A stretch of 64,000 nt of DNA, from contig NZ_AP028156.1 in NCBI RefSeq assembly GCF_033096465.1, forward strand, positions 839,501-903,500. Reading direction: 5' to 3'. This DNA is from Blautia luti (lineage in GTDB: Bacteria > Bacillota > Clostridia > Lachnospirales > Lachnospiraceae). Made by a program: the position numbers and the translations under genes. Below are positions 49,180-63,957 of this stretch, piece by piece (the stretch's first letter is position 1; every line of letters begins with the position of its first letter). The notes beneath the pieces are model-generated. The model was not told the DNA's origin, did no database searches, and saw nothing but the letters and a program-made list of their open reading frames with translations.

Positions 49180-50820
49180 ATGGAATTTCGTAAGAACGAT
49201 CTTGTTACGTTAGAGATAGAAGATTGCGGAATTGACGGTGAAGGTATCGGAAAAGCCGATGGCTTCACCGTTTTTGTCAAGGACGCAGTAATCGGAGATA
49301 AAGTAACAGCTAAAATTATTAAAGCAAAGAAAAATTACGGTTACGGCCGTCTGATGGAGGTACTCAAGCCATCTCCATATAGAGTAGAACCGAAATGTGC
49401 CTTCGCCCGTCAGTGCGGTGGCTGCCAGCTTCAGGCACTTTCCTATGACCAGCAGCTTGTATTTAAGACCAATAAAGTCAAAGGTCATCTGGAGCGCATC
49501 GGAGGATTTACAGATATCCCTATGGAGCCGATCATTGGCATGGACGAGCTTTTCCATTACAGAAACAAAGCACAGTTCCCTGTAGGCAGAAATAAAGAGG
49601 GAAAAATCGTCACAGGTTTCTATGCGGGAAGAACCCACAATATTATTGAAAATCGTGACTGCGCACTTGGCGTAGCTGAGAATAAAGAAGTTCTGGACCG
49701 TGTGATCGCACATATGGAGAAATATGGGATTGAGCCGTATAATGAAGCAACTGGAAAAGGACTGGTACGCCATATCCTGATCCGTTACGGATATTTCACA
49801 AAAGAAGTAATGGTCTGTCTGATCCTGAACGGAAATAAAATATCGAAAGAAAATGTGCTGGTAGAATCCCTGCGTGAAATCCCGGGAATGACAAGCATTA
49901 CCATCAACGTAAATAAGAAACGCAGCAACGTGATCCTCGGCGAAGAAATCCGACTGCTCTGGGGACAGGAATACATCACCGACAAGATCGGAGATATTTC
50001 CTATCAGATATCCCCACTCTCTTTCTACCAGGTAAACCCAAGACAGACACAGAAACTCTATGCAAAAGCACTGGAATATGCAGACCTCCATGGCGAGGAA
50101 ACTGTCTGGGATCTCTACTGCGGAATCGGAACAATCTCACTGTTCCTGGCACAGAAAGCGAAATTCGTCCGCGGTGTAGAAATCGTTCCGGCGGCGATTG
50201 AGAATGCGAAAGAAAATGCAAAGCTTAACGGGTTGGAGAATACGGAATTCTTTGTTGGCAAAGCGGAAGAAGTACTGCCGAGAGAATATAAGAAAAATGG
50301 TGTTTATGCGGATGTTATCGTTGTAGATCCACCTAGAAAGGGATGCGATGAGACATTGCTGGAGACTATGGTTGAGATGAATCCGGAGAGGATTGTATAC
50401 GTCAGCTGCGATAGTGCTACGTTGGCTAGAGACTTGAAGTATTTGTGTGAGAGAGGGTATGAACTTCGCAAGGTCTGTGCGGTTGATCAGTTTGGGATGA
50501 CTGTGCATGTGGAGACGGTTGTTTTGCTTTCCAAGGGAGAAATCGACTCAAAGAAGGTGCGGGTGGAGTTCTCGCTGGAAGATATGGATATGTCCGGCTT
50601 CCAGAAGGGCGCGACTTATGAGCAGATCAAGGCGTATGTGTTGGAGCATACCGGTTTGAAGGTATCTTCCCTGTACATCTCACAGATAAAGCGCAAGTGC
50701 GGGCTGGATGTGGGGCAAAATTATAACCTGTCAAAGAAGGAAGATGCCAAAGTGCCAAAATGTCCGCCGGAGAAGGAAGCGGCGATCAGGGATGCGTTGA
50801 AATATTTTCAGATGATTTAA
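49180..50820 (+). CDS. rlmD: 23S rRNA (uracil-C5)-methyltransferase RlmD with an added C-terminal tail
   Basis: 546 residues. An N-terminal TRAM domain (residues 1-65) is followed by the iron-sulphur cysteines Cys73, Cys79 and Cys82 (CAFARQCGGC), the SAM-binding DLYCGIGTISLFLAQKA, DPPRKGCDE, and the catalytic Cys410 in VSCDSATLARDL. It methylates U1939-type positions of 23S rRNA. After VETVVLLS (about residue 446) comes a 100-residue basic tail (KVSSLYISQIKRKCGLDV ..) not needed for the fold. A decayed homologue of this tail lies at 60.9-61.2 kb beyond the serine recombinase. Codon use turns G-ending from about 50200. I infer that the tail was supplied by the integrated element. Confidence 0.92.
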   Translation: MEFRKNDLVTLEIEDCGIDGEGIGKADGFTVFVKDAVIGDKVTAKIIKAKKNYGYGRLMEVLKPSPYRVEPKCAFARQCGGCQLQALSYDQQLVFKTNKVKGHLERIGGFTDIPMEPIIGMDELFHYRNKAQFPVGRNKEGKIVTGFYAGRTHNIIENRDCALGVAENKEVLDRVIAHMEKYGIEPYNEATGKGLVRHILIRYGYFTKEVMVCLILNGNKISKENVLVESLREIPGMTSITINVNKKRSNVILGEEIRLLWGQEYITDKIGDISYQISPLSFYQVNPRQTQKLYAKALEYADLHGEETVWDLYCGIGTISLFLAQKAKFVRGVEIVPAAIENAKENAKLNGLENTEFFVGKAEEVLPREYKKNGVYADVIVVDPPRKGCDETLLETMVEMNPERIVYVSCDSATLARDLKYLCERGYELRKVCAVDQFGMTVHVETVVLLSKGEIDSKKVRVEFSLEDMDMSGFQKGATYEQIKAYVLEHTGLKVSSLYISQIKRKCGLDVGQNYNLSKKEDAKVPKCPPEKEAAIRDALKYFQMI

Positions 50821-50835
50821 GAGTCTATTGAGCAA

Positions 50836-50870
50836 AAAAGCAGTAAATCAATTTCAGATTTACTGCTTTT
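50836..50870. terminator. Terminator after rlmD
   Basis: AAAAGCAGTAAATC and GATTTACTGCTTTT form a 14-bp stem around AATTTCA-type loop bases, with A and T tracts on both sides, so it can serve convergent genes. Confidence 0.9.
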
Positions 50871-50962
50871 GCTGGCCGGGCCGGTGAGCTACGAGCATTC
50901 ATGACTTTTTGATAACTTGTTCCATACTGATATATTAAGCGGAAAGTTGTGGCCCTGTATTT

Positions 50963-51247
50963 TCAGAGGGAAACGAATGCTCCTTGAATATATCCCACAA
51001 AATATGCCATCGCTATACTCAGTGCAATGCAACATATACATAGTATTTCAGCAATTACCTTTTTTTCGATTATTTCATTTATGGACTTTCCGTAATCAAT
51101 AGTAGACCATACCATTGAAAGCAAAAATAGAATTGAAATCCATTGAGTATGAAATGATAGTCCCATGCTAACAAATACATAGTTTGAGATGATGTAAAAA
51201 GCGCTTCTGACTACAACTTCTGTCACTTTTACAATCCGATTTCTCAT
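50963..51247 (-). CDS. Small membrane protein in the PadR operon
   Basis: 94 residues starting MRNRIVKVTEVV at 51247, preceded by AGAGAGGGAG; an upstream in-frame ATG at 51286 lacks such a site. Two or three hydrophobic helices are apparent (SAFYIISNYVFVSMGL, WISILFLLSMVW and IAEILCICCIALSIAMAYFVGY). No family recognised. It is the last of four minus-strand genes headed by a PadR regulator, so it may be part of a small envelope-response module. A 160-base GC-rich stretch with several hairpins separates it from the lipoprotein gene. Confidence 0.6.
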   Translation of the reverse strand: MRNRIVKVTEVVVRSAFYIISNYVFVSMGLSFHTQWISILFLLSMVWSTIDYGKSINEIIEKKVIAEILCICCIALSIAMAYFVGYIQGAFVSL

Positions 51248-51274
51248 AGAATTCTCCCTCTCTGATAATACTGT

Positions 51275-51408
51275 GGGCGGCAGCACTCCTTGCTGTCGCC
51301 CCTTGATTGCCTATCTGCAAAGGCGGGCGGGGCTGTCAACGGCGGCGCTTGCGCCGTTCATCTTGACCGTTGACTGGCTCGGCTGGCTTTGCTATTCCGT
51401 GATCTCTT
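51275..51408. other. GC-rich hairpin-containing intergenic segment
   Basis: Contains GGCGGCAGCACTCC/TGCTGTCGCC-type pairing and AACGGCGGCGCTTGCGCCGTT, a tight 8-bp hairpin. It is markedly more GC-rich than the flanking AT-rich genes and may be a terminator or an old insertion scar. No coding potential is seen. Confidence 0.4.
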
Positions 51409-51852
51409 TCAGTTATTGTCAAAGGAAATGTAGATAGTTAGACTATTGGGTATGTAGCTGATACTTAACCACTTTTCGTCGTTTGATAAAAGTGTCCCGA
51501 TAGAAACATAGTTTTCTCCCTCGATTTCCTCTGACACATTTTCAATTACGGAAAAGCCTTCTTGGTTCAAAAGCTCCATATACTCGTTATAGTCGTTTTC
51601 GCTAATACCGGTAAGGTTGATATTACAATTCTCATGTTCTGTATCAAGTGTAGCCCATGCAACCGTACCAGGCGCAACAGGAAGCCCCTCTGTGTACTCA
51701 TTCTCAGGCCAAACACCCTCGTCCAATTTTGTAACACTATTAGATTGCGTATTGTTCTCATTGCTTGTCGGTGTAGATGAGGTATTTTGATTAGAACACG
51801 CAGCCAAAAAAATCATAATCATGATTGTGAATACAGAAATATATTTCTTCAT
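51409..51852 (-). CDS. Lipoprotein of unknown function
   Basis: 147 residues. The signal peptide ends in the lipobox LAAC (MKKYISVFTIMIMIFLAAC), so Cys19 should be lipid-anchored outside the membrane. A Ser/Thr/Asn-rich linker follows, then a compact domain with VAWATLDTEHENCNINLTGISENDYNEYM and YVSIGTLLSNDEKWLSISYIP. The family is not recognised. AGGAGGT precedes the ATG; the upstream gene ends three bases away, so it is in the PadR operon. AT-rich codon use differs from the GC-rich IME core. Confidence 0.8.
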   Translation of the reverse strand: MKKYISVFTIMIMIFLAACSNQNTSSTPTSNENNTQSNSVTKLDEGVWPENEYTEGLPVAPGTVAWATLDTEHENCNINLTGISENDYNEYMELLNQEGFSVIENVSEEIEGENYVSIGTLLSNDEKWLSISYIPNSLTIYISFDNN

Positions 51853-51855
51853 TGG

Positions 51856-52314
51856 TTACCTCCTGTTTTTGTGTATGGTTCGGATAATTAACAAAAGAGC
51901 AATAGCTGTTGCTGCAAACCCAATAGCCAAAAGGATTTGCGAAATATCAAAGGCAAACGCGCCCTCAATCTGTATATTTGTTGTCGCGTCGGCTTGTCCG
52001 ATTGCTCCTTCTGGTACTTTTCCTGATTGTGTAACAGCATATACCGAAAAGGCAGCAGCCGCGATAACAAGCGCAGCAAGAGTAGAAATGATACCGTTCC
52101 TTTTTTTCGATTTGGTGTTATCAATGCCAAACTGTTCTGCGGTGCTGTCTGCAAATTCTTTTGGCGTCCCCAAACGCTGGATAATCTGCTGCTCTGTTTC
52201 TCCATGCTCCATAGCAGACGCAAAAACTTCATTCAAGTCACGTACAACCTCTTTTTTCATTTTGCGTGGTAAAGATAGTTCCTTTTCAACCTGTTTGATA
52301 TATTGTTCTTTCAT
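51856..52314 (-). CDS. HAAS-domain (DUF1700-like) membrane protein
   Basis: 152 residues. The N-terminal 65 residues (KQVEKELSLPRKMKKEVVRDLNEVFASAM .. IIQRLGTPKEFA) match the HAAS signalling helical bundle commonly encoded next to PadR regulators. Two transmembrane helices follow (ISTLAALVIAAAAFSVYAV and ILLAIGFAATAIALLLIIRTI). PadR-HAAS pairs often form an autoregulated membrane-stress circuit. It overlaps the PadR gene by four bases. Confidence 0.85.
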   Translation of the reverse strand: MKEQYIKQVEKELSLPRKMKKEVVRDLNEVFASAMEHGETEQQIIQRLGTPKEFADSTAEQFGIDNTKSKKRNGIISTLAALVIAAAAFSVYAVTQSGKVPEGAIGQADATTNIQIEGAFAFDISQILLAIGFAATAIALLLIIRTIHKNRR

Positions 52315-52670
52315 TTGGATACCCTCGCTTGTTGATAACTTTCTATAAAGCCGTTTACGCAGTTTTCATAGCTTGACCAAAATAAGATTAGTTCATCAAG
52401 TACATTCCTGCCTTTATCCGTTAAAGAATAATACTTTTTTGAGCCGCCATTTGCCGCAGCCGGAGCCAATCGGCATTTGATTAGTTCTGCTTCCTGCAAA
52501 CGATACAAAATGGGGTAAATGGTTCCCTCTTTCGCATATCCCAAAACAGACGCACTATTGTTCAATTCAGTTATAATTTCATATCCATAAGTCTCCTTGC
52601 GTCCGATTAGGCATAAAAGTATCATTTCCAGAGAGCCTTTTTTGAATTGCTGGACATATTTGTTATTCAT
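52311..52670 (-). CDS. PadR-family transcriptional regulator
   Basis: 119 residues. It starts NNKYVQQFKKGSLEMILLCLIGRKETYGYEI, the winged helix with KEGTIYPILYRLQEAELIKC as recognition and wing, then GGSKKYYSLTDKGRNVLDEL and a C-terminal dimer helix. PadR proteins usually repress their own operon, here the HAAS protein, lipoprotein and small membrane protein. It is the promoter-proximal gene of the four. Confidence 0.93.
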   Translation of the reverse strand: MNNKYVQQFKKGSLEMILLCLIGRKETYGYEIITELNNSASVLGYAKEGTIYPILYRLQEAELIKCRLAPAAANGGSKKYYSLTDKGRNVLDELILFWSSYENCVNGFIESYQQARVSK

Positions 52671-53232
52671 ATCGTCGCCTCTCTTTAGCTTTGCTATTTA
52701 GGCTCGCTAAGTAGCAACTATATTATATCTCTTCCGAAGTATCAGAGTCAATAGGCTTAACGAAAAAGTTACAAGATGTCTGTGTAAGGTAATGACAGAA
52801 TAGCGGTGTGCTGGCGAACTATGCTTTATTTTGTTTTTTATCTAAATCATTCAATAGGGCGGTAGCATCCCTATTGGCAAGGGGATTCCAAAAGGGAACA
52901 GCGTTCTCCTTTGTCTGGGGTGTTCAGAGGGGATAGTGTTCCCCTTTGACCGGAAGAATCCAAAGAAACCGGCGGTTTCGTGGCACACGATTTTCCGTAG
53001 GAAAGTCTAGTGTGTTATACCTTTGTGGAGCAGATGGCAGCCGGAATTGTAGCACACCCTGAAAAGTGTGGCCACAGTTGCGGCGTTCTGGCAGGAAAGG
53101 TTGCCCCTTGCGGGGCAGCATAAGCGACAGAAAAAGGCTGGCAGGCGGTGCGGGCAAGCACTGTCTGTCAGCCGTGTCATTTGCGGAACAAAGGTATATC
53201 AAAGCCCCCGTCAGCCGCTGCTTCCCATCGTA
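52671..53232. repeat. Non-coding region with two tandem hairpin repeats
   Basis: Two related hairpins of about 25 bases lie at 52894-52918 (GGGAACAGCGTTCTCC..) and 52929-52953 (GGGGATAGTGTTCCCC..), agreeing at about 18 of 25 positions, each followed by CTTTG. GC content rises from here to the right, so the region may mark the seam between the AT-rich cargo and the GC-rich IME core. Short open frames here look spurious. Confidence 0.5.
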
Positions 53233-53895
53233 TCAGAACCACCACGGCAGCTTTCCGCGCAGGCTGTCCATCGCCTCGCCCTCCACCTTCTTTGTCCAGC
53301 TCTCGCTGAGATGGAAATGGAGCGCCGCGCCGATCAGCGGGTGCTCGATTCCATCGGTAAAGCCATAGCGGTACAGCAGATAGGTCTGCTCTCTGGCTGT
53401 CAGCTTGTCCAGCGCCGCATACAATTCTATCAGCTGCTCTTTTTGGATATAGATTTGCTCCGGCGTTTGGGTGTGAGGGTCGGCTATGGCTTCGATCCGC
53501 AGCATCCGTTCATCCTCTGAGAGAACGTCATCCAGATATACTCTCTGGAAGCCGGGGCCGTCTTTCTTATCCACCATCCGTTGCTCAAATAAACCGAGGG
53601 CGGCGCGGATGCAGTCCGTCATGGCGTTGCGGAGCGCCGGTGCTGCATAGGTCAGAAATTTCATGCCCCGTCCGGCATCAAACAAAGGGATCGCGTTCAG
53701 CAGGCCGATACTTCCCTCCTGCATCAAATCATCCAAATCAATTCCAATATCATTTTCATCCAGCCCCATGTTTCGGTATTGCTCCAGCGCAATTTTTCGG
53801 ATGAATCCCAGATTCTTTTCCAGCAGAATGTCACGGGCAGCCGTATCCCCTTTCTGTGCCAGTCTGCACAGCTGCTCATTGCTCCGGGTCGGCAT
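53233..53895 (-). CDS. RNA polymerase sigma-70-like factor of the mobile element
   Basis: 220 residues. Region 2 reads NLGFIRKIALEQYR .. IDLDDLMQEGSIGLLNAIPLFDAGRGMKFLTYAAPALRNAM, the core-binding and -10-recognition segment. Region 4-like sequence follows (LDKLTAREQTYLLYRYGF .. ESWTKKVEGEAMDSLR). It may direct transcription of element genes or act as a regulator. It is expressed with, and overlaps by 20 bases, the XRE-type gene upstream. GC-rich codon use matches the IME core. Confidence 0.88.
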   Translation of the reverse strand: MPTRSNEQLCRLAQKGDTAARDILLEKNLGFIRKIALEQYRNMGLDENDIGIDLDDLMQEGSIGLLNAIPLFDAGRGMKFLTYAAPALRNAMTDCIRAALGLFEQRMVDKKDGPGFQRVYLDDVLSEDERMLRIEAIADPHTQTPEQIYIQKEQLIELYAALDKLTAREQTYLLYRYGFTDGIEHPLIGAALHFHLSESWTKKVEGEAMDSLRGKLPWWF

Positions 53896-54715
53896 TTTGC
53901 TTCTCCTGCGCGTGGTCTAAGGTGGATTGGAGAAATTCCGTCAGCGCCTGACCGAACTTGTCTAATGCTTCCTTTTGCACACCGTCCATCCCCGCTGCGC
54001 TCTGGGTGACGGCGGCGGAAATCATTTCGGGCGTGATGGTCGGAGTATGAACATCCGCCCCTTTGGTGAGTTCGGTAAACATCTGCTGAGTGATGCCCTT
54101 GGTCAAGGACTGCGCTGCTGTGAAATCGTTGCCGATCTCTTTCTTCACTTCCCGTAGCGCCGCCATAAATGTGTTCTGTATCATCGTCAGGTCTGCCTGA
54201 TATACGGGAACTTTCTGCCGGTTGACAGTTCTGGCCGCCTGCACCGCAGCGTCTGTTTTATTGTTTCGGCGCAGCATGGCGCTGAGAGTAGTAAGCATCT
54301 GGTTCTGTCCGGCGAAACCGGCGGCCAGCGTATCGTCAAAATATTGCTCAATCATATAGGTGACTTCTGCAAAGCGAGGGCTTTCCAAAAGGCGGTTGAC
54401 GATCTCTGCATTGGCTTTTCCGGTGTACAGATTCCGCGCCGCCTGCACCGACAGGCCCAGTTCTTCAATATCAAAATTTGTCCGGTCGGGCGTGTTGACT
54501 TCCCCCAGCAGGAAATCTGTGGAGACTTCAAACACTTTCGCAATGCGGAGCAAATGTTCTGTGCTGATCTTATCAGTCTTACCGCTGACAAACCGGCTGA
54601 TGGCGCTCTCGGTGCTGCCGATGCGGGTCGCCAGCTGTGCCTGGGTAATTTTATGTTCCTTCATAAGCTCCTGCATCCGCTGCCGGATATTGCCGGGCAG
54701 ATAGGCTCCCTCCAT
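53876..54715 (-). CDS. XRE-family regulator with a long C-terminal domain
   Basis: 279 residues from ATG 54715, preceded by AGAGAGGTG; a GTG at 54724 overlaps that site. The N-terminal helix-turn-helix covers about residues 8-68 (MKEHKITQAQLATRIGSTESAISRFVSGKTDKIS). A helical region of about 200 residues of unknown function follows, which could sense a signal or bind the sigma factor. It is divergent from the primase genes and overlaps the sigma gene, so it is a good candidate for controlling element excision or replication. Confidence 0.85.
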   Translation of the reverse strand: MEGAYLPGNIRQRMQELMKEHKITQAQLATRIGSTESAISRFVSGKTDKISTEHLLRIAKVFEVSTDFLLGEVNTPDRTNFDIEELGLSVQAARNLYTGKANAEIVNRLLESPRFAEVTYMIEQYFDDTLAAGFAGQNQMLTTLSAMLRRNNKTDAAVQAARTVNRQKVPVYQADLTMIQNTFMAALREVKKEIGNDFTAAQSLTKGITQQMFTELTKGADVHTPTITPEMISAAVTQSAAGMDGVQKEALDKFGQALTEFLQSTLDHAQEKQNADPEQ

Positions 54716-54796
54716 GTGACGCACCTCTCTTCTGAAAACTCTCTTTATCCATTATACCTGATAAAACCAGCGCGGGCAAATGCTTTCCGCTGGCTT

Positions 54797-54846
54797 CGCC
54801 GCTCTGAGGTCTTGCATTTTTGCAAGATTTCAGGGCGGCGTTTTTT
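54797..54846 (+). terminator. Strong terminator ahead of the primase operon
   Basis: CGCCGCTCTGA and TCAGGGCGGCG, extended inside by TCTTGCA/TGCAAGA, form a long hairpin followed by six T residues. It lies between divergent genes, where no obvious plus-strand transcript would reach it except one starting within the preceding 80 bases. Confidence 0.85.
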
Positions 54847-54852
54847 CATTTC

Positions 54853-54882
54853 TTGCACTTTTAGCGGATTTTTCGGTTTATA
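54853..54882 (+). promoter_or_regulatory. Probable promoter of the primase operon
   Basis: TTGCAC (54853-54858), 18 bases, TTTATA (54877-54882), immediately downstream of the terminator and 66 bases before the first ATG. Confidence 0.5.
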
Positions 54883-54948
54883 GGCTTTTTCCCCGTATAT
54901 TCAGGCAGACGGGCAGATACCGTCAATAAATAATGGAGGACAAAGCCT

Positions 54949-55569
54949 ATGAATTTATTTGAAACTGTAAAATCCGCTGTCACCGTGAAGCAGGCCGCCG
55001 AATACTACGGCTGTAAGGTCAACCGGGGCGATATGATCTGCTGCCCCTTCCACGATGACCGGCATCCCAGCATGAAGCTGAACAGGGATTATTTCTATTG
55101 CTTTGGCTGCGGGGCTACCGGGGATGTGATCGATTTTGTGGCGCGGCTGTTCGGCCTGAGCAGCTACGAGGCCGCAAAGAAGCTGGCCTATGACTTTGGC
55201 ATCGACCCGGACAAGCCCCCGGCAGCGATGGCTTTGAAAAAGCCCTATCCGCTGGCGCGGGCTTTCCGCAACGATGAGATACACTGCCAGCGGGTGCTCT
55301 GCGATTATCTGCATCTGCTGGAACGCTGGAAGGTCGAATATGCCCCGCAATCGCCGGAGGATGAACTGGATGACCGCTTTGTGGAAGCCTGTCATATGAT
55401 CGAGTATGTAAATGATTTGTTGGACGTTCTCATGTTTGCGGAACTGAAGCAGCGTGTGAAAGCGGTGGATATGCTGCTGAAGGACGGCACTATCACCGCG
55501 CTGGAGCAGCGGCTCAGACGTCTGGAAAAGGAGGTGCAGCACCGTGGCGAAGAACGAGCAATCGCGTGA
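54949..55569 (+). CDS. CHC2 zinc-finger primase-like protein
   Basis: 206 residues. The N-terminal zinc-binding domain has likely ligands Cys32, His35, Cys51 and Cys54 (CCPFHDDRHPS and YCFGCGATGDV), as in DnaG and phage primases. The Toprim catalytic domain is absent, and the C-terminal 100 residues are helical. It presumably recognises the template for the P4-type protein that follows. GGAGGAC precedes the ATG. Its 3' end overlaps the next gene by 26 bases. Confidence 0.9.
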   Translation: MNLFETVKSAVTVKQAAEYYGCKVNRGDMICCPFHDDRHPSMKLNRDYFYCFGCGATGDVIDFVARLFGLSSYEAAKKLAYDFGIDPDKPPAAMALKKPYPLARAFRNDEIHCQRVLCDYLHLLERWKVEYAPQSPEDELDDRFVEACHMIEYVNDLLDVLMFAELKQRVKAVDMLLKDGTITALEQRLRRLEKEVQHRGEERAIA

Positions 55570-56917
55570 GGCCAACCAGCCCATCTGGTTTGACGGCAAG
55601 AGTATCAATGAAGCCCTGTTTTGTGATGATTTTCTCGGCAGACACAAAATCATCTACACAAACGGGGCTTTTTTCACGCCTGATGGCCGCGTGACCGATG
55701 AGCTGCCACTGCGTGGAGAAATTTTTGAGGAACTGAAATGCTGTGCGGTCAGCAATATCCCCCGCAAAATCAGCAATATCGTGGAGCTGATGAAGCTGGC
55801 GGCGCTGGTAGAGGATTTCCCGCCGGAGGCTGACCGCATTCATCTGGCAAACGGCACGTTGTTTCTGGATGGCTCCTTTACGGAGGGAAAACCGGACATC
55901 GTGCGTTGCCGCCTGCCGGTGGCCTATAATCCCGATGCGCCCACGCCGACCCGCTGGCTGGCTTTTCTGGATGGGCTTCTTTACCCGGAGGACATTCCCA
56001 CTTTGCAGGAATATATCGGCTACTGCCTGATCCCCAGCAACAAGGGACAGCGCATGATGGTCATTAAGGGCAATGGCGGCGAGGGTAAGAGCCAGATCGG
56101 CGCGGTGCTGTCCGCCCTGTTCGGCAGCAACATGAAGGACGGCAGCATCGGCAAAATTTCCGAGAACCGTTTTGCCCGCGCTGATCTGGAACACATTCTG
56201 CTGTGTGTCGATGATGATATGCGGATGGAGGCCCTGCGGCAGACCAACTATGTCAAATCCATCGTCACCGCACAGGGTAAAATGGATTTGGAGCGTAAAG
56301 GCAAGCAGAGCTATCAGGGATGGATGTGCGCCCGGCTGCTGGCATTCAGCAATGGCGACTTGCAGGCTCTCTTTGACCGCAGTGATGGCTTTTATCGGCG
56401 GCAGTTGGTGCTGACCGCCAAAGAGAAACCTGCCGACCGTGTGGATGATCCCGACCTGGCAGAGAAGATGAAGGCCGAGGTGGAGGGCATTCTGCTGTGG
56501 GCTTTTGCGGGATTGCAGCGGTTGGTAGCGAACAACTTCAAGTTCACCGAGAGCCAGCGCACCAAAGAGAACCGGGAGGCCGTCAAGCGGGACAACAATA
56601 ACGTGTTTGATTTTCTGGAATCCGAGGGCTATATCCGGCTGAAAGCGGATGCGTCCATCAGTTCAAAGGATTGCTACGACATTTACCGGATGTGGTGCGA
56701 GGAAAATAGCCTGACTGCACTCAAACGCCGCAGCTTCAGCGATGCGCTGGTGGCAGCCTGCGGTAAGTACAATCTGGAACACTGCAACACGATTACCAAT
56801 TCGGCAGGACGCCGGGTATGGGGCTTTATGGGGATCGAGGCAGTGGCAAGGCCGCATATAAACGAGTTTACGGACGCTTCACAGTGTACGTACGTACCGG
56901 AAGACTGGCGGGATTGA
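55544..56917 (+). CDS. P4-type phage/plasmid primase-helicase
   Basis: 457 residues starting at GTG 55544, with AAAAGGAGGTG ahead. The D5_N-like middle is followed by a superfamily-3 helicase: Walker A GNGGEGKSQIGAV at about residues 174-186, LLCVDDDMRMEAL as Walker B and GWMCARLLAFSNG as the C motif. The C-terminus (FDFLESEGYIRL .. LTALKRRSFSDAL) resembles a winged helix that binds an origin. With the CHC2 protein it would replicate the excised element. Confidence 0.9.
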   Translation: MAKNEQSREANQPIWFDGKSINEALFCDDFLGRHKIIYTNGAFFTPDGRVTDELPLRGEIFEELKCCAVSNIPRKISNIVELMKLAALVEDFPPEADRIHLANGTLFLDGSFTEGKPDIVRCRLPVAYNPDAPTPTRWLAFLDGLLYPEDIPTLQEYIGYCLIPSNKGQRMMVIKGNGGEGKSQIGAVLSALFGSNMKDGSIGKISENRFARADLEHILLCVDDDMRMEALRQTNYVKSIVTAQGKMDLERKGKQSYQGWMCARLLAFSNGDLQALFDRSDGFYRRQLVLTAKEKPADRVDDPDLAEKMKAEVEGILLWAFAGLQRLVANNFKFTESQRTKENREAVKRDNNNVFDFLESEGYIRLKADASISSKDCYDIYRMWCEENSLTALKRRSFSDALVAACGKYNLEHCNTITNSAGRRVWGFMGIEAVARPHINEFTDASQCTYVPEDWRD

Positions 56918-56947
56918 TTTCCGATCTGGTCGCCGGTACGTATGTAC
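56886..56947. repeat. Long-spaced inverted repeat after the helicase gene
   Basis: GTACGTACGTACCGG (56886-56900) and CCGGTACGTATGTAC (56933-56947) are complementary with one mismatch, 32 bases apart, spanning the helicase stop codon. No T tract follows. The repeated GTAC units and position suggest an origin or regulator site. Confidence 0.55.
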
Positions 56948-57002
56948 GCAGCGATTGACCCTGTTACCTCATATATTGTAGAGGCGCTTCATTTGGATAA
57001 AG

Positions 57003-57160
57003 TGGTCGTGCCCATTTTGGGTACACCTATTTTGATGTGTAAAAGTGGTTATGGATATTTTGTCCACCACCAGAACCGTGAAATTCTTCGCGCTTTTGTG
57101 CTGTGAAGTAGGTGTGGTCATTTTGACCACACCTGAAGCGGTCAGTAAAAGCGGTGATTT
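57003..57160. repeat. Two related hairpins upstream of the mob region (possible oriT or ori)
   Basis: AGGTGTGGTC-ATTTT-GACCACACCT (57110-57134) is a perfect 10-bp hairpin. At about 57008-57024 GTGCCCA-TTT-TGGGTAC is a shorter relative. Each is followed by ACACCT and GTAAAAG-GGT, giving imperfect direct repeats of about 45 bases spaced about 107 bases apart. The region 56918-57510 has no convincing gene. Confidence 0.55.
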
Positions 57161-57510
57161 TGCAGGCATATTTTAGAGCAATCTCAAAACAGCGAAATGT
57201 TTCTCTTTTATCCGTATACAGTTCGCCGGATGGCGGCTCACGGAACGACGTACAGATTGCAGCATTTTGTGACAATACAGCCCGAACAGTGAAAAGTCCC
57301 GCATTTCTGTGAAGTCGAATATTCCGCCGTTGACCAACGATACGCAGGGAATCATTTCTATCGCAAAACAGCATTTGCACAAATTTCACCATTGACCAAA
57401 GCCGGTGCGCTCCCCAGCGTAGCCGGTTCTTTTTATGACGCAACCGAAAATCATGTTTTATCTATCAAGTGACAAAGGGCTTCACTTGCGAAAATGGAGG
57501 AATATATTTT

Positions 57511-57729
57511 ATGAAGTCAAGTATCCGAAACGAAATCAAGGCGCAGATCATCCGCGCCGGTTACACCATGCAGGAAGTCGTTGACCAGCTGCACGATGAG
57601 TATGGGTGGAGCGACAGCGTATCCAATCTTTCCGGAAAATTGCAGCGGGAATCGCTGCGGTATCGGGAGGCCGTGGAGTTGGCTGACGTGCTGGGATATG
57701 ACATTGTCTGGCAGAAACGGAGGGATTGA
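57511..57729 (+). CDS. Small HTH-like protein next to the relaxase
   Basis: 72 residues starting at ATG 57511, with ATGGAGG 13 bases upstream; an in-frame start at 57469 lacks a site. The sequence KSSIRNEIKAQIIRAGYTMQEVVDQL .. SVSNLSGKLQRESLRYREAVELADVLGY has the helical rhythm of a small XRE-like DNA-binding domain. It lies three bases before the relaxase gene, so it is probably a mobilization accessory protein or regulator. The family is not named with confidence. Confidence 0.75.
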   Translation: MKSSIRNEIKAQIIRAGYTMQEVVDQLHDEYGWSDSVSNLSGKLQRESLRYREAVELADVLGYDIVWQKRRD

Positions 57730-57731
57730 GT

Positions 57732-58718
57732 ATGGAAAAAGCACAATACGCGATTATGCGATTTGCCAAATATAAGGGGCCTGAAATCGGCAATATCGAG
57801 GCCCATAACGAGCGCACAAAGGAAAAGTACGCCAGTAATCCCGATGTGGATACCAGCCGAAGCAAGTACAACTTCCATCTGGTCAAACCGCCCGGCAAGT
57901 ACCGGGCCGAGTCAGAGAGGCAAATTGCCGCTGCCGGATGCCGTACCCGGAAAGACAGTATCCGTATGATCGAGACGCTGTTCACAGCCAGCCCGGAGTT
58001 CTTTAAGGGAAAGAAACGGGCGGAAATTCGGGTATTTTTCGAGGAAGCTCTGCACTTTTTGGAACAGCATCAGTCCAAAGAGACAATTATATCCGCCGTG
58101 GTGCATATGGACGAGAAAACGCCCCATATGCACCTTTGTTTTGTCCCTTTGACGGAGGATGGCAGGCTCAGCGCCAAAGACATCATGGGCAATAAAAAGA
58201 AGCTGACCTGGTGGCAGGATGAGTTTTGGAAACACATGGTCAAGAAGTTTCCAGATTTGGAGCGTGGCGAGAGCGCCAGCCTGACCGGGCGCGACCATAT
58301 CCCGCCCCGCGTATTTAAGGAGATGACCAGACTGACCAAACAGAAAAGCAAACTGGAGGATCTGCTCACTGGAATCAATCCCTTTAACGCCAAAAGCCGG
58401 GCGGAGGAAATCTGCAAGATTCTGGATACCTATATTCCCAGCGTGGAGAAGATGGACACACTGCTGCGGAAATATGGCGTAGCCTTCACGAAAACAGCAT
58501 CCGAAAACAAAAAGTTGAAAACGAAAAATGCCGAACTGGAAGAATCTCTTGCATCGGCGCAGAAGGTCAGCACCCTAAAGCAGATCGAAGACCTCAAGCT
58601 GCGGCGCGACTATGACAGTGCCGTGGCGATTTTGGAACAGATACCGGCAGAAGTTTTGAACATCTATGCGCAGAGCAGCCATAGAGGAAAGGAGCGGCCT
58701 ATTGAGCAAAGTTTATGA
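57732..58718 (+). CDS. MobV-family relaxase (Pre/Mob)
   Basis: 328 residues from ATG 57732. The N-terminal catalytic domain has motif I-like YAIMRFAKYKG, NIEAHNERTKEKYASNPDVD and the histidine motif HMDEKTPHMHLCF at about residues 124-136, which coordinates the metal in MobV enzymes. A coiled coil follows at about residues 195-310. It nicks an oriT for transfer by a helper conjugation machine. It starts three bases after the preceding gene. Its codons match the IME core, and there is no conjugation machinery here, so the element is mobilizable and not self-transmissible. Confidence 0.92.
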   Translation: MEKAQYAIMRFAKYKGPEIGNIEAHNERTKEKYASNPDVDTSRSKYNFHLVKPPGKYRAESERQIAAAGCRTRKDSIRMIETLFTASPEFFKGKKRAEIRVFFEEALHFLEQHQSKETIISAVVHMDEKTPHMHLCFVPLTEDGRLSAKDIMGNKKKLTWWQDEFWKHMVKKFPDLERGESASLTGRDHIPPRVFKEMTRLTKQKSKLEDLLTGINPFNAKSRAEEICKILDTYIPSVEKMDTLLRKYGVAFTKTASENKKLKTKNAELEESLASAQKVSTLKQIEDLKLRRDYDSAVAILEQIPAEVLNIYAQSSHRGKERPIEQSL

Positions 58719-58899
58719 TGATCCGAAATATAATGCGGCATTTGACCGCTGTGTTGATGTGATGGCGCGGCTGTTGCAGAAGTACGGGCCACAGCTGTTG
58801 GGGCAGATGCAGGAGACTGAGAAGGATGGCCGTACACAGTCTGCGGCATCAGGAAAGCAACCCGTTCCTGTGTATCAGGAATTTGACAAAGCCGCTTGA
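58702..58899 (+). CDS. Small protein of unknown function downstream of mobV
   Basis: 65 residues from TTG 58702, with AAAGGAGC seven bases ahead; an in-frame ATG at 58666 is inside the relaxase end and lacks a site. The sequence YDDPKYNAAFDRCVDVMARLLQKYGPQLL looks like a single helical domain with a polar tail. It overlaps the relaxase by 17 bases in another frame. No family recognised. Confidence 0.6.
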   Translation: MSKVYDDPKYNAAFDRCVDVMARLLQKYGPQLLGQMQETEKDGRTQSAASGKQPVPVYQEFDKAA

Positions 58900-58913
58900 T
58901 ATAAATTAAATTT

Positions 58914-58962
58914 ACACGTTGCGTATTTGTTTGGCGTATGCTATAATAAATACGCAACGTGT
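58914..58962 (+). promoter_or_regulatory. Promoter framed by a perfect 15-bp inverted repeat
   Basis: ACACGTTGCGTATTT (58914-58928) and AAATACGCAACGTGT (58948-58962) are perfect complements with a 19-base gap. TTGCGT (58919-58924) and TATAAT (58942-58947), 17 bases apart, form a promoter inside the repeat, so a protein bound to the arms would cover both boxes. The HTH gene that follows is the likely ligand and the recombinase its target. Confidence 0.8.
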
Positions 58963-58987
58963 ATTTTTGCTTTATGGGGTAAATGAA

Positions 58988-59233
58988 ATGGACTGCAAAA
59001 CCAAAATAAAAGAATTGCGGGAAAGCACTGGCATGAATCGCAAGGAATTTTGTAAATATTTTCAGATTCCCTATCGGACTGTGACAGAATGGGAACTGGA
59101 TAACCGCCATGCGCCGGAATATGTACTCCGTTTGTTGGAGTACTACATTCAGAATGAAGGTCTGGCGAAGAAGAAAGTAACGGATGAATGTTTAGAGCTG
59201 GAAGAAAGGGGCGGCCTGCATGAAGAAAACTAA
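58988..59233 (+). CDS. Small helix-turn-helix regulator preceding the recombinase
   Basis: 81 residues from ATG 58988; a longer frame back to 58919 would run through the promoter and is rejected. The sequence KIKELRESTGMNRKEFCKYFQIPYRTVTEWELDNRHAPEYV is a typical small XRE-type domain, followed by LRLLEYYIQNE. It overlaps the recombinase gene by 14 bases, so the two are co-expressed. I infer that it autorepresses the promoter framed by the inverted repeat, tying recombinase supply to its own level. Confidence 0.88.
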   Translation: MDCKTKIKELRESTGMNRKEFCKYFQIPYRTVTEWELDNRHAPEYVLRLLEYYIQNEGLAKKKVTDECLELEERGGLHEEN

Positions 59234-60908
59234 AACAAAATGTTATCTCTACACACGGGTATCTACATCCATGCAGGTGGACGGATATAGTCTGGATGCT
59301 CAGCGAGACAAACTGCGGAAATACGCTGAATACGAAGATATGGTAGTGGCTGGTGAATATTCTGATGAAGGCTTTTCCGGCAAGAATATTCAGGGCAGGC
59401 ACGAATTTCAGCGGATGCTGCAAGACATTCAGGACTGCAAAGACGGTGTGGAATATGTGCTGGTGTTCAAGCTGTCCCGGTTTGGCAGGAATGCCGCTGA
59501 CGTTCTGAATTCCTTGCAGCTGATGCAGGATTTCGGTGTCAATCTGATTTGTGTGGAAGACGGCATTGACAGTTCCAAAGATTCCGGCAAGCTGATGATT
59601 TCTGTCCTTTCTGCGGTGGCAGAGATAGAGCGTGAAAATATTCGGACACAGACGATGGCCGGACGGGAGCAGAAAGCCCGTGAAGGAAAATGGAACGGTG
59701 GCTTTGCCCCTTATGGATACCGCCTTGAAAAAGGCGAACTGTTGATTGCTGAGGATGAAGTGGACGTGATCCGCACCATCTTTGACCGCTATATTCACAC
59801 CAACGATGGTGTCAGTGGCGTGGCAAAATATCTGAACCGGCAGGGCTTTGTGAAGAAGTTAAGGCAGAACGGCACCATTCCCGGTTTTTCTGCCAGCTTT
59901 GTGAAGAGTATCATTGATAATCCGGTATATATGGGAAAAATCGCCTATGGCAGACGCCGGACAGAGAAGAAGATCGGCACACGGAATGAGATGCACGTAG
60001 TTGAGCAATCGGAGTTCCCTGTGTACGAGGGGAAGCATGAGGCTATCATTTCAGAAGAAGATTGGAACCTCGCGCAGGAAAAACGGAAAATCAATGCTTA
60101 CCGGCGTGGGAAAGTCAATGACCCTACCCACGCACATATCTTGTCCGGTATTCTGAAATGCCCCTGCTGCGGCAAAAGCCTGTACGGGAATATTGCGAAA
60201 GCCCACAGCAAGGACAAAAAGACCCGCTATTACTATTACTGCAAGAATACGGTGACGCCAACAGGCCACGAGTGTACCTTCCGGCTGAATATTGAGCAGA
60301 TGGAAATGAACCGCATGGTAGCGTCAATCATCTCTGCTATGGTCAGTGACCCACGGTTTGCGGATGCAATCAAGGCGAAAATCGGCTCCGCTGTCGATAC
60401 GAACGATTTGGAGAAGCAGCTGGAAGCATTACAGGCGCAGCTTCGGCAGACATTAGGCACAAAGGCCCGACTGGAACGGCAGATGGACGGTTTAGATGTG
60501 AATGACCCGTATTATGACCGGAAAATTTCTGATTTGCAGCGCCGATATGACGAGCAATATGGCGCAATAGATGAGATTGAAGTCCAGATTGACGATGTGC
60601 AAAGCCAGATACGGAGTATCCGGCAGGAGAAGATTTCGGGTGATAATATCTACCGCCTGTTGCTGGCATTCGATCAGGTCTATGAAGCAGCCTCCGAAGT
60701 GGAGCGGAAGGAGTTCATGCGGGCGTTTATTGAGCGGATTGAGTTATTCCCGGAAAAGCAGCCGGATGGCAACTGGATTAGGAAGATTATCTTCAACTTC
60801 CCTGTCCCGGTGAATGGAACAGAAGTGAAAGAATTGCCCTTGGAAAATGAAACAATAGTCGAGACAGTTGCTCTTTTGTCCCAACTGAAACAAAAGCCGG
60901 ATCATTAA
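59220..60908 (+). CDS. Large serine recombinase (integrase of the element)
   Basis: 562 residues. The resolvase domain starts YLYTRVSTSMQVDGYSLDAQ with nucleophile Ser15. The recombinase domain spans about residues 170-290 (GFAPYGYRLEKGEL .. FVKSIIDNPVYMGKIAYGRR). A zinc ribbon lies near 312-350 (LKCPCCGKSLYG .. YYYCKNTV), with a coiled coil near 390-470. The last residues ETVALLSQLKQKPDH match RlmD after its catalytic domain, so the gene reads through the attachment site into displaced rlmD sequence. The stop results from decay there. In the excised circle the frame would continue into the tail now on RlmD. Confidence 0.95.
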   Translation: MKKTKTKCYLYTRVSTSMQVDGYSLDAQRDKLRKYAEYEDMVVAGEYSDEGFSGKNIQGRHEFQRMLQDIQDCKDGVEYVLVFKLSRFGRNAADVLNSLQLMQDFGVNLICVEDGIDSSKDSGKLMISVLSAVAEIERENIRTQTMAGREQKAREGKWNGGFAPYGYRLEKGELLIAEDEVDVIRTIFDRYIHTNDGVSGVAKYLNRQGFVKKLRQNGTIPGFSASFVKSIIDNPVYMGKIAYGRRRTEKKIGTRNEMHVVEQSEFPVYEGKHEAIISEEDWNLAQEKRKINAYRRGKVNDPTHAHILSGILKCPCCGKSLYGNIAKAHSKDKKTRYYYYCKNTVTPTGHECTFRLNIEQMEMNRMVASIISAMVSDPRFADAIKAKIGSAVDTNDLEKQLEALQAQLRQTLGTKARLERQMDGLDVNDPYYDRKISDLQRRYDEQYGAIDEIEVQIDDVQSQIRSIRQEKISGDNIYRLLLAFDQVYEAASEVERKEFMRAFIERIELFPEKQPDGNWIRKIIFNFPVPVNGTEVKELPLENETIVETVALLSQLKQKPDH

Positions 60909-61200
60909 TTAATGTCACGATTGAACTTGATGATATGGATATAACATCTGCAGAGACTAAGGCTACATATGATGAGATAAAGAGTATGTGGCTGAACATA
61001 ATGCCGGCATGAAGGTTTCCAATCGGTATATCTCACAGGTAAAGAGAAAATGCGGAATTGAGGTTGGAAAGAATTATAATTTACCTAAAAATGAAGATAG
61101 CAGGCAACCGCAGTGTCCAGAAGATAAAGAGAGTGCAATTGTGGAGCCATTGAGCAAGAAGCCCCCACTTCAAAATCAGAGATTTAAGTGGTGGGAGCAT
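60870..61200 (+). pseudogene. Decayed second copy of the RlmD C-terminal tail
   Basis: Reading across frames gives LLSQLKQKPD, then (one frame over) INVTIELDDMDITSAETKATYDEIKS, then (after another shift near 60982-60990) AEHNAGMKVSNRYISQVKRKCG and IEVGKNYNLPKNEDSRQPQCPEDKESAI. This parallels RlmD residues 449-540 (VRVEFSLEDMDMSG .. YISQIKRKCGLDVGQNYNLS .. CPPEKEAAI). By eye the DNA is only roughly 70 percent identical, so it is not a recent duplication. I read it as the chromosomal rlmD end displaced when the element inserted, since damaged by at least two frameshifts. Confidence 0.8.
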
Positions 61201-61238: not shown

Positions 61239-61928
61239 ATGCCAGGTATACTCGTGGTTGAAGATGATGAAAATTTAAATCGTGGAATTACATTCTCACT
61301 GAAAAAATCCGGATATGAGGTTTTTTCAGCAGAATCAGTGAAAAAAGCGAAAAGAATTGCAAGTGATAATAATGTGGATGTTACCATTTGTGATGTGAAT
61401 CTTCCGGATGGGAATGGACTGGAATTTGTAAGGTGGATGAGATGCAATTATAATACATACATTATTTGTCTTACAGCACTAGATCAGGAGATGGATCAGG
61501 TCATGGGATATGAAGCAGGGGCAGATGATTATATTACAAAGCCGTTTAGTCTTTCGGTACTTCTTTTGAAAATAGAAGCACATTTCCGCCGCAGACAGGA
61601 GAAAACGGAAGCCGGAAAGATGATTTCGGGAGATATCGTATTTATCGCAGGAGAAATGAAAGTCCTGATAAAGAGTCGTGAAATCAGTCTGACAAAAACG
61701 GAGTTGAAAATGCTGACTTTTTTTCTTCAGAATCCGAAACAGATTCTTTCAAAAACACAAATATTGGAAAATGTGTTTGATCTGGAAGGGGATTTTGTGG
61801 ATGAAAATACAATCGCTGTCAATATCAGAAGACTCCGTGAGAAAATCGAAGACAATCCGGCTGCACCGGTCTATATAAAGAATATCAGAGGTCTTGGGTA
61901 TATATGGAATCAGGAGGTAAGGCAGTGA
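61239..61928 (+). CDS. OmpR-family response regulator of a peptide-sensing system
   Basis: 229 residues. Receiver domain with acidic VVEDDEN, phosphorylated Asp52 in ICDVNLPDGNG and Lys in DDYITKPFS; then a winged helix (ISLTKTELKMLTFFLQNPKQILSKTQILENVF .. NTIAVNIRRLREKIE). Its placement before a kinase and an ABC transporter is typical of bacitracin/lantibiotic-responsive BceRS- or VanRS-like systems. AGAGAGGTG precedes the ATG. The stop overlaps the kinase start by GTGA. Confidence 0.93.
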   Translation: MPGILVVEDDENLNRGITFSLKKSGYEVFSAESVKKAKRIASDNNVDVTICDVNLPDGNGLEFVRWMRCNYNTYIICLTALDQEMDQVMGYEAGADDYITKPFSLSVLLLKIEAHFRRRQEKTEAGKMISGDIVFIAGEMKVLIKSREISLTKTELKMLTFFLQNPKQILSKTQILENVFDLEGDFVDENTIAVNIRRLREKIEDNPAAPVYIKNIRGLGYIWNQEVRQ

Positions 61929-63169
61929 CAAAGAGATATCGCAAGAAGATTACAGTAGTGCTCTCCTTGGTATTACCTGTCATATTATTGTTTGCAATAT
62001 TAAATTGCTTTACCACGTATGTGTTTTATGAAGATTATAAATATAAAATGAATCTTATGACAGAGATTGCTGCAAAGGAAGAATTTTTCGGGCTGGATGC
62101 TGTTTCGGAATTGCTTAAGGATAAGGATATTGAAACTAACGAACAGGGAAGGCGATTATTGGAACAATATGGATACTGGGGGAATAAAGGGAATGCATTT
62201 TATTCGCAATTCCGGCATCAGGTTATGGTGACCGGTGCTGTAAGCACTGTGATATGCGTGCTTCTTTTGACTTTTTTACTTTATTGGAAGAAAAAAGAAG
62301 ATGCGTGTCATCAGAAAATTTTAGACCAGTTGGAAGAAATTCTGATCAGATTCCGTGAAAATAAATTTGATGATTTACTGAAAACGGAAAATCATGCAGA
62401 ACTGGAAAAATTGAATGACCAGCTTGAAGCAATCGGACATCATATTCAGTTGATAAAGGAAGAAGCAAGGGCAGAAAAGGAGAACACGAAAGAAATGGTT
62501 TCTGATATTTCTCACCAGTTAAAGACACCGGTTGCAGCTTTGGATACATGTTTTAGTGTGCTGATGCAGAATGACTTAAGTGCCACAGAACAGGAGGAGT
62601 TTCGTATCCGTTGTCGGAGTGCTCTGGATGGACTGGAGACATTATTGCAGTCGCTTCTTGAAATATCCAAGATGGAAACTGGACTGATTCAGATTAATAA
62701 GAAAAAACTTCCGCTTATGGATACTGTCATATCTGCTGTGAACCGCACTTATCCTAAAGCGGATGAGAAAGAAATGGAATTCGTTTTTGACTATGAAAAA
62801 GAGCTGGAAACATGCATGGTTATGCAGGATAAAAGGTGGCTTGGTGAAGCTGTGATCAACGTTCTGGATAATGCGGTCAAGTACAGTCCGTGTGGTTCAA
62901 AAATATTTATCCGGTTACAAAAAAGAAACTATCTTGTAAGAATGGAAATTGAGGATCAGGGAATTGGTATTCCGCAGAATGAGTATCACAAAATTTTTCA
63001 ACGATTTTACAGAGGAAGTTCCAAGGAGGTCATGGAAAAGAGTGGTACAGGAATCGGACTTTTTCTATCGAGAGAAATTATCGAAAAACACGCAGGTACG
63101 ATTACGGTAACCTCCGGCAAAAAGAAAAAAGGAAGCACGTTTGTGATTCAATTACCATATGTTGGTTAA
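61925..63169 (+). CDS. Sensor histidine kinase of the ABC-linked two-component system
   Basis: 414 residues from GTG 61925 (GGAGGTAAGGCA ahead; overlapping the regulator's stop), not from the in-frame ATG 61904. Helix 1 is at about residues 9-31 and helix 2 at about 92-115, with a short external loop of about 60 residues between them. The phospho-acceptor is His197 in SDISHQLKTPVAAL; the ATPase has LDNAVKYS, DQGIGIP and GTGIGLFLSREI. The modest external loop suggests that stimulus perception may need the ABC transporter, as in Bce systems. Confidence 0.93.
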   Translation: MTKRYRKKITVVLSLVLPVILLFAILNCFTTYVFYEDYKYKMNLMTEIAAKEEFFGLDAVSELLKDKDIETNEQGRRLLEQYGYWGNKGNAFYSQFRHQVMVTGAVSTVICVLLLTFLLYWKKKEDACHQKILDQLEEILIRFRENKFDDLLKTENHAELEKLNDQLEAIGHHIQLIKEEARAEKENTKEMVSDISHQLKTPVAALDTCFSVLMQNDLSATEQEEFRIRCRSALDGLETLLQSLLEISKMETGLIQINKKKLPLMDTVISAVNRTYPKADEKEMEFVFDYEKELETCMVMQDKRWLGEAVINVLDNAVKYSPCGSKIFIRLQKRNYLVRMEIEDQGIGIPQNEYHKIFQRFYRGSSKEVMEKSGTGIGLFLSREIIEKHAGTITVTSGKKKKGSTFVIQLPYVG

Positions 63170-63178
63170 ATTTTAAGT

Positions 63179-63221
63179 GAGCAGAAATCTTACAATTCTG
63201 TAAGATTTCTGCTCGTTTTTT
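63179..63221 (+). terminator. Terminator between the kinase and ABC genes
   Basis: GAGCAGAAATCTTAC and GTAAGATTTCTGCTC form a perfect 15-bp stem, then GTTTTTTG. The ABC genes therefore form a separate unit, presumably driven by the response regulator. Confidence 0.9.
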
Positions 63222-63282
63222 GAAAGTGAAATGAAAGATTGCCCTGATACAATTTGGATGTAAGATGAAAAGGAGGCAACAC

Positions 63283-63957
63283 ATGAGTGTGATATTAGAA
63301 ACCAAGCAGCTTTGTAAGTTTTATGGAGCAGGTGAGAATCAGGTCAAAGCGGTCAATCAGGTGGACATTCAGATTGAGCAGGGAGAATTTGTCGCAATTG
63401 TTGGAAAGTCAGGTTCCGGTAAAAGTACATTACTTCATATGCTTGGAGGGCTAGACACCCCGACAAAAGGCAGTGTTACTTTAGCAGGGAAAGATTTATA
63501 CAGGATGAAGGAAGATGCCCTTGCTGTTTTCCGCAGAAGAAAAATCGGATTTGTTTTTCAGGCATTTAATCTGGTTTCATCTGTTAATGTCTGGGAAAAT
63601 ATTGTACTGCCACTGGGGCTGGATGGAAGAAAAGTGGATGAAGCGTATGTAAATGATATTATTGCAACTCTGGGGATTGAAAACCGGATTTATAATCTGC
63701 CAAATCAGTTATCCGGAGGACAGCAGCAGAGAGTAGCAATTGCAAGAGCACTGGTGAATCGTCCGGAAATTATATTTGCAGATGAGCCGACAGGAAATCT
63801 TGATTCTAAGACCAGTGATGAGGTAATCGCTCTGCTTAAGATGACAGCAAAAAAATATGGACAGACAATTGTAATGATTACCCATGATGACGAAATTGCA
63901 CAGGTCGCTGACCGTATTCTGGTGATTGAGGACGGACAGGTGGTGGATTTCAGATGA
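63283..63957 (+). CDS. ABC transporter ATPase (MacB/BceA-like)
   Basis: 224 residues from ATG 63283, which has AAAGGAGG eight bases ahead; the in-frame ATG 63265 overlaps that site. Walker A is GKSGSGKST at residues 41-49, with Q-loop FVFQAFNLV, signature LSGGQQQRVAIARAL, Walker B IIFADEPTGNLDSK and the H-loop MITHDDE. The sequence belongs to the LolD/MacB/BceA group that expels or counters antimicrobial peptides. The stop overlaps the permease ATG (ATGA). Confidence 0.95.
   Translation: MSVILETKQLCKFYGAGENQVKAVNQVDIQIEQGEFVAIVGKSGSGKSTLLHMLGGLDTPTKGSVTLAGKDLYRMKEDALAVFRRRKIGFVFQAFNLVSSVNVWENIVLPLGLDGRKVDEAYVNDIIATLGIENRIYNLPNQLSGGQQQRVAIARALVNRPEIIFADEPTGNLDSKTSDEVIALLKMTAKKYGQTIVMITHDDEIAQVADRILVIEDGQVVDFR

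Follow-up and report, generated by a model that had tools for sequence, protein, structure and literature searches.

The window analysed here, a stretch of 64,000 nucleotides from Blautia luti (NCBI RefSeq assembly GCF_033096465.1, contig NZ_AP028156.1, positions 839,501 to 903,500 of the forward strand; coordinates below count from its first base), raises the question of why two genes that lie at the two ends of a mobile element, rlmD and the gene of a large serine recombinase, carry the same short motif, and why a damaged relative of the RlmD tail stands behind the recombinase. The element occupies 50512..60860 of the forward strand (10,349 bp). The comparisons described below make it very probable that its integration swaps the 3' ends of rlmD and of the recombinase gene reciprocally and in frame, by a crossover at a GA dinucleotide, and such an in-frame trade of tails is seen, by sequence comparison, to recur across many gut Clostridia.

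The joint between rlmD and the recombinase gene

RlmD, a 23S rRNA uracil-5-methyltransferase of 546 amino acids (49180..50820, forward strand), matches the TIGR00479 model with 478 bits at residues 18-445, and the recombinase of 562 amino acids (59220..60908, forward strand) matches PF00239, PF07508 and PF13408, the Resolvase, Recombinase and zinc-ribbon domains that characterize large serine recombinases. The motif VETV(V/A)LLS, which an initial annotation of this DNA had noticed in both proteins, is present as VETVVLLS in RlmD (50509-50532) and as VETVALLS in the recombinase (60858-60881), and the two copies are indeed in the same codon phase, both reading GTN-GAG. The RlmD bodies of sister and distant species match the window RlmD only as far as the V444/E445 codon; RlmD would be host-derived through V444 and element-derived from E445, and the recombinase would be element-derived through V547 and host-derived from E548. 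The crossover, previously placed within GAGAC-N-GTTG, is narrowed by comparison to a GA dinucleotide found at 50512..50513 in the left attachment site (attL) and at 60861..60862 in the right one (attR), which is inside the recombinase gene, both on the forward strand, and this GA is the putative 2-bp core of strand exchange. The left end of the element is a tail of 102 amino acids, here called type X (50512..50817, forward strand), which is element-borne and now ends RlmD. The former RlmD tail, of the type SQLKQKPD, follows the recombinase (60861..61155, end approximate, forward strand) and is a decayed homologue as had been proposed, with 15 codons in the recombinase frame and the remainder in two other frames up to about 61.15 kb.

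When the ends of the element are joined, they form a 50-bp palindrome around the GA, the predicted attachment site of the free element (attP), the left arm of which (60837..60860, forward strand) is within the recombinase gene and the right arm (50514..50537, forward strand) within the element-borne tail, with 19 of the 24 bases of the left arm complementary to 50514-50537. Among 200,000 random pairs of positions inside the element no more than 17 of 24 bases match in this way, shifting the assumed core by 1-15 bases leaves at most 10 matches, and the rejoined host site of the window has 8 palindromic matches out of 24.

The reaction very probably proceeds as follows. The element would carry attP, centred on GA, in the 3' part of its own recombinase gene, and the recombinase would cross this site with a GA that belongs to the E codon of an HVE motif close to the 3' end of rlmD. 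As the cut falls at one and the same phase of the codon in the two genes, each of them would receive the 3' end of the other in frame, so that on integration RlmD would gain the element tail of 102 amino acids and the recombinase the former end of the host gene. Excision would reverse the swap and restore a recombinase with its own tail, read across the joint ...ATAGTC-GA-GACGGTTG...; joining the ends predicts a protein of 649 amino acids for this circular form, in agreement with the roughly 650 residues anticipated in the initial annotation. For the window copy, movement by this reaction and a continuing ability to excise are inferred from sequence comparison, as would be any consequence that the swap has for the two enzymes.

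Ends, empty sites and joints in other genomes

Of 7,990 scored, 7,955 match RlmD residues 450-546, and in 119 of the 120 listed matches that were examined the tail of 102 amino acids is identical from the E codon on. These 120 comprise 94 RlmD-like bodies, 9 serine recombinases that are 32-41% identical to the window recombinase, and 17 other bodies, including an M20 peptidase and a CTP synthase. The exception is the RlmD-like protein P0121, which continues for 163 residues, rather than 94, beyond the GEIDSKK motif; its tail is perhaps doubled. In the 30 left-end loci that were inspected as DNA, tail X is in frame with the host gene every time, and the bodies are RlmD in 25, other serine recombinases in 3, an open reading frame of 176 amino acids that matches no Pfam model in one, and one of only 17 amino acids in the last. 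All 36 searched genomes with relatives of the recombinase also have a match to the tail at E 0.001.

The right ends are the counterpart. The search with the recombinase gave 7,984 matches, and of the 120 listed ones examined 119 were classified (P0065 was dropped). In these listed matches the recombinase keeps 88-100% identity as far as ...ENET(I/M)V, or a close variant of it, and is unrelated afterwards: 23 end in an RlmD-type tail, 29 in a short RlmD-like end and 67 in something else, the latter with 42 distinct starts, some of them perhaps out of frame. The codon after the V starts with GA in 118 of the 119 (E in 105, D in 13), the remaining one being K. Several of these listed recombinases run in frame into enolase, RsmF, an ABC ATPase, a phosphorylase or the CarA amidotransferase. 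The last case has both halves in the database, since P0153 consists of the first 209 residues of CarA followed by tail X, and P0067 of a recombinase followed by the remaining part of CarA; joined together, the halves leave no gap at the joint when compared with the small chain of Escherichia coli carbamoyl-phosphate synthase, though P0153 and P0067 may come from different strains. One off-target end, ETFQYKDYADRYSDAY..., recurs after the recombinase in P0026, P0027, P0034, P0036, P0059, P0071-P0075 and others, which suggests a second preferred insertion gene.

Both ends were also found together. In 27 two-ended elements, paired from the 30 left-end loci, each on one contig and strand and 6.4-21.1 kb long, the GA core is present in all 27, and attP has 15-20 palindromic matches out of 24 compared with 4-13 at the rejoined host sites, figures that are somewhat favoured for attP by the choice of the best-pairing candidate as the right end of each pair. 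In the Faecalibacterium genome G129 a related element (15,847 bp) lies between an RlmD with an X-like tail and a recombinase ending in ECVLLMSKAQ, and the sister species G112 has an element-free rlmD whose protein ends in the same ECVLLMSKAQ. Joining the G129 flanks at the GA gives a sequence that aligns with the element-free G112 gene for 1,458 bp (83% identity), gapless in the 200 bases around the joint; if they are left unjoined, the left flank matches in 68 of 200 bases and the match of the right flank begins no earlier than base 61. Two partial protein entries contain the joint expected of the circular form: P0263 (469 amino acids) joins the C-terminal part of the recombinase of the Fusicatenibacter locus L104 (238 of 238 residues) to the tail of the same element (102 of 102), and P0262 (412 amino acids) is 100% identical to the recombinases of L103 and L111 and to the tails of L114 and of a Gemmiger contig. 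The reciprocal swap put forward in the initial annotation thus fits the boundaries, the constant tail of the element, the host-derived ends of the recombinases, the empty site of a relative and the circle-type joints in the database.

Some observations weigh against the swap or leave it less complete for the window copy. The joint seen in P0262 and P0263 could also be given by tandem copies, and the attP palindrome of G129 is weaker, with 13 matches out of 24. A protein that unites the window recombinase with tail X is absent from the 120 listed of 1,253 matches, and an intact attP is found neither in 392 genomes of the order with up to 2 mismatches nor in viral contigs, where the exact pattern was sought; for the window copy these database searches gave neither an empty site nor a circle. 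Among the other copies, the right flank of the one in Faecalibacterium prausnitzii L076 resembles sister species in the tail alone, at 75% or less, the joined flanks of the F. plautii copy have no sister genome with both halves together, and the off-target gene that holds the copy in the Oscillospiraceae isolate L079 has no homologue in its two sister genomes.

The tail could instead be native to RlmD, with the element inserted behind rlmD and the copy at 60.9 kb arising as a tandem duplicate by homologous recombination. The element is flanked by two copies of the tail, which would fit this explanation, and RlmD tails of the same family also occur where the first downstream kilobases hold no recombinase, so that some have been kept for long. 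It is nevertheless very improbable. In a survey of the genus, with 30 rlmD loci fetched from 64 genomes, 15 stop 9-15 codons past the E, 7 have long tails of 101-114 amino acids belonging to several types, 5 have tails of 34-41 amino acids, and 3 are cut by contig ends. Moreover, one identical tail stands on very different bodies such as CarA and CTP synthase, similarity of host DNA in Faecalibacterium ends at the HVE codon, and the pair of G129 and G112 speaks against a native tail in that genus. There is next to no probability that the fusions to various genes arose by chimeric assembly and that only a simple insertion beside rlmD is real: many of the listed tail and recombinase matches do come from single metagenome contigs, but the same joints occur in the isolate genomes L076, L078, L080, L082, L091, L104, L114 and L130, the breakpoint is on GA in 118 of the 119 classified recombinases, and the window genome is one contig.

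The tail domain and its possible roles

In alignment the tail consists of a variable linker followed by a conserved half, ATYxEIKxYVxExxGLKVSxLYIAQVKRKCG..., which gives the impression of being helix-turn-helix-like. No Pfam model matches the tail at E 10, NCBIfam gives nothing above its cut-off and one match far below it, and a sequence search of the PDB gives no convincing relative (best E 0.03); in PHROG the tail matches a family of unknown function, at best with 4e-9 for another tail type and 0.089 for type X. The ratio of nonsynonymous to synonymous substitution rates (dN/dS) over tail codons 10-102 is 0.014-0.147 in 7 of 12 comparisons, those where it is computable, since one of the others has no amino-acid change and four are saturated at synonymous sites; by these codon comparisons the tail is under purifying selection at the protein level. 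Decay of the tail once the element is integrated was considered and rejected, as none of 31 X-type tails contains a stop. Tail ends were classified at 72 of 81 loci (five were excluded beforehand, two lacked an end and two were too short). Tails on host genes are open in 30 of 30 loci, compared with 11 open and 7 broken among 18 behind recombinases (Fisher p 0.0004), although the broken ones partly share ancestry, those of the window, L104 and L150 being of one type. This contrast leans towards a use of the tail on the host protein after integration, though a use on the free recombinase is compatible with it too.

Two uses of the tail come into question. Somewhat short of an even chance, the tail may work only in the recombinase of the free form, with integrase activity being switched by the swap as the element passes from circle to chromosome and back. 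The strong purifying selection on codons 10-102 is consistent with this, and the integrase of phage Mx8 is reportedly less active after such a loss, according to the passage cited from PMC4701971. Against it, the integrated recombinases, if they excise, work with very diverse ends, and a role in the recombinase alone does not require that tails on host genes stay open after integration.

It is also conceivable, with comparable reserve, that the tail acts for the host protein and preserves or modifies RlmD in such a way that insertion is harmless or useful. The difference between host genes and recombinases in open tails argues for this, as does the low nonsynonymous rate (dN) in the retained RlmD tails of Faecalibacterium pairs. 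It is opposed by the 15 of 30 RlmD in the genus that lack a long tail and presumably work, by the shared type of several broken tails, and by the presence of the same tail on off-target bodies.

A tentative proposal, about which doubt prevails, joins these roles: the tail would be a travelling module of about 100 amino acids, conserved at the protein level and tied to the joint itself, and a single crossover would thereby reprogram two proteins, the integrase, as a memory of its state, and the rRNA methyltransferase of the host. Such a module, equally doubtful, would be common to several recombinase lineages and would sit on the recombinase of the free element and, after integration, on RlmD.

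Stacking, gene content and related systems

The tail behind the window recombinase had been taken for the host's. It is itself an earlier acquisition, found also behind two other recombinases. The tail remnant and a response-regulator operon stand behind the recombinase of genome G001 (L060), another member of the genus. That recombinase is 47% identical to the one of the window, and the flank is 99.4% identical for 1,391 bp starting at window position 61196. The right flank also follows the L104 recombinase (83% identical to the window's), with 94% over 924 bp. Since the same flank follows other recombinases in other genomes, it is older than the arrival of the window element. The genes at 61239-63957, after the tail remnant, encode a response regulator, a histidine kinase and an ABC ATPase, and are apparently, judged by these comparisons, cargo of an earlier element. 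A further tail copy lies beyond the window at C1:907882-908262 (L037:4882-5262, window position about 68.4 kb) in an open reading frame of 126 amino acids; it begins HVETVC, 30 codons past an unrelated start, and is probably the trace of an older integration. This region, L037, contains more mobile DNA and no clean edge of the chromosome. The same genome has a second serine recombinase (C1:921135-922808, L066), 54% identical to the first, which ends VE|IVCLLGNRKPDTTVKLSVDMDDY..., another short tail type that is also found on RlmD of five fetched members of the genus. At L166, L164 and L180 elements are lodged at the end of the recombinase gene of another element, and therefore the joint itself is a landing site.

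The element encodes both a Mob_Pre relaxase (57726..58718, forward strand; PF01076, E 7.7e-52) and its own recombinase, and is integrative and probably mobilizable. The Pfam scan further gives, on the reverse strand, a DUF6591-like cargo protein with a score below the Pfam cut-off (51409..51852), a HAAS-domain cargo protein (51856..52314), a PadR-type regulator, also cargo (52311..52670), a sigma-70-like factor (53233..53895) and an HTH_3 regulator (53876..54724), and on the forward strand a CHC2 zinc-finger primase-like protein (54949..55569) and a DUF5906 or D5-type helicase-like protein (55544..56917). No drug-resistance gene is among the ten scanned proteins, eight of them in the element besides the recombinase, a set that does not cover every open reading frame. 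An inverted repeat upstream of the recombinase (58901-58975), with 31-nucleotide arms that are 84% complementary and a 13-nucleotide loop, is a candidate for a terminator or an oriT-like site. Whole-length copies of 10,348-10,349 bp, thus within 1 bp of the window element, with 98.4-98.7% identity are found in F. prausnitzii L076, in Clostridia UC5.1-1E11 (L078) and in L079; the L079 copy sits in an unrelated gene, and its similarity to the window element begins exactly at 50512. A search of plasmids found no close relative, the best match having 51%.

The initial annotation knew of no described reciprocal tail exchange, but one exists: Ambroset et al. (2016; PMC4701971) report, in the part cited here, that integration of streptococcal integrative and conjugative elements in rumA leads to a reciprocal exchange of the rumA and integrase 3' ends with both frames changed, and suggest, by analogy with Mx8, a functional difference between the two integrase forms. 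According to that passage, these elements share with the present one the target (rumA being rlmD), a serine integrase, an att site inside the integrase gene, the reciprocal 3' exchange, the change of both C-termini and the use of secondary sites. Insertion in rlmD with an att site in the integrase gene is found here as well (RlmD forms the body at 25 of 30 left ends), and the reciprocal exchange is seen in related elements, though not for the window copy. The change of frame reported for the streptococcal elements does not occur: in all 30 left-end loci tail X keeps the reading frame of the host gene, and a conserved domain of about 100 amino acids is handed over. The hosts are Clostridia, and the element is of about 10 kb with a Mob_Pre relaxase.

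Other systems, each compared through the passages cited, agree with it in some features and differ in others. Phage Mx8 also has attP inside its integrase gene and replaces the integrase C-terminus on integration, but it uses a tyrosine integrase, and the passage of PMC4701971 does not describe a conserved domain being traded with a host gene. In phage BPs and its kin (PMC9262239) attP likewise lies in a gene of the element, and integration alters the C-terminus and thereby the function; there the gene is that of the repressor, the integrase is of the tyrosine type, the site is a tRNA gene, and the tail is an ssrA-like degradation tag. Suicidal integrases of the SSV type (PMC8371274) also contain the recombination site, but these tyrosine integrases are split into two inactive pieces, whereas all three predicted domains remain here. 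TndX of Tn5397 (PMC4430133) is a large serine recombinase whose target has GA at its centre; this target, unlike rlmD, is Fic-encoding DNA, and the excerpt used contains no tail exchange. The central GA of TndX/TnpX-like transposons is thus matched by the putative core, a likeness on which no family membership is claimed. The multi-targeting large serine recombinases of Durrant et al. (2022; PMC10083194) also have many target genes for each recombinase, but the example core in the cited text is TT and DUF4368 is common in that clade, and DUF4368 is not among the Pfam matches of the window recombinase at E 0.001; the term "C-terminal" does not occur in the text consulted from that paper. Searches of open-licence literature, as a weak negative, gave no description of an in-frame exchange of a conserved tail.

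The surprise is limited, because the basic exchange was reported for streptococci in 2016. What appears to be new is that the exchange is in frame and concerns a conserved domain for which Pfam and NCBIfam have no model, that this domain passes among recombinase lineages, RlmD and off-target genes (carA, for instance), and that elements stack at rlmD. The swap explains why RlmD has wholly different C-termini in near-identical species and why database recombinases carry pieces of enolase, CarA and RsmF, and it offers natural att sites that can be read through as protein. If it matters functionally, the state of integration would be written into the sequence of the integrase itself with no separate switch, and mobile elements would repeatedly re-end a conserved rRNA methyltransferase across gut Clostridia.

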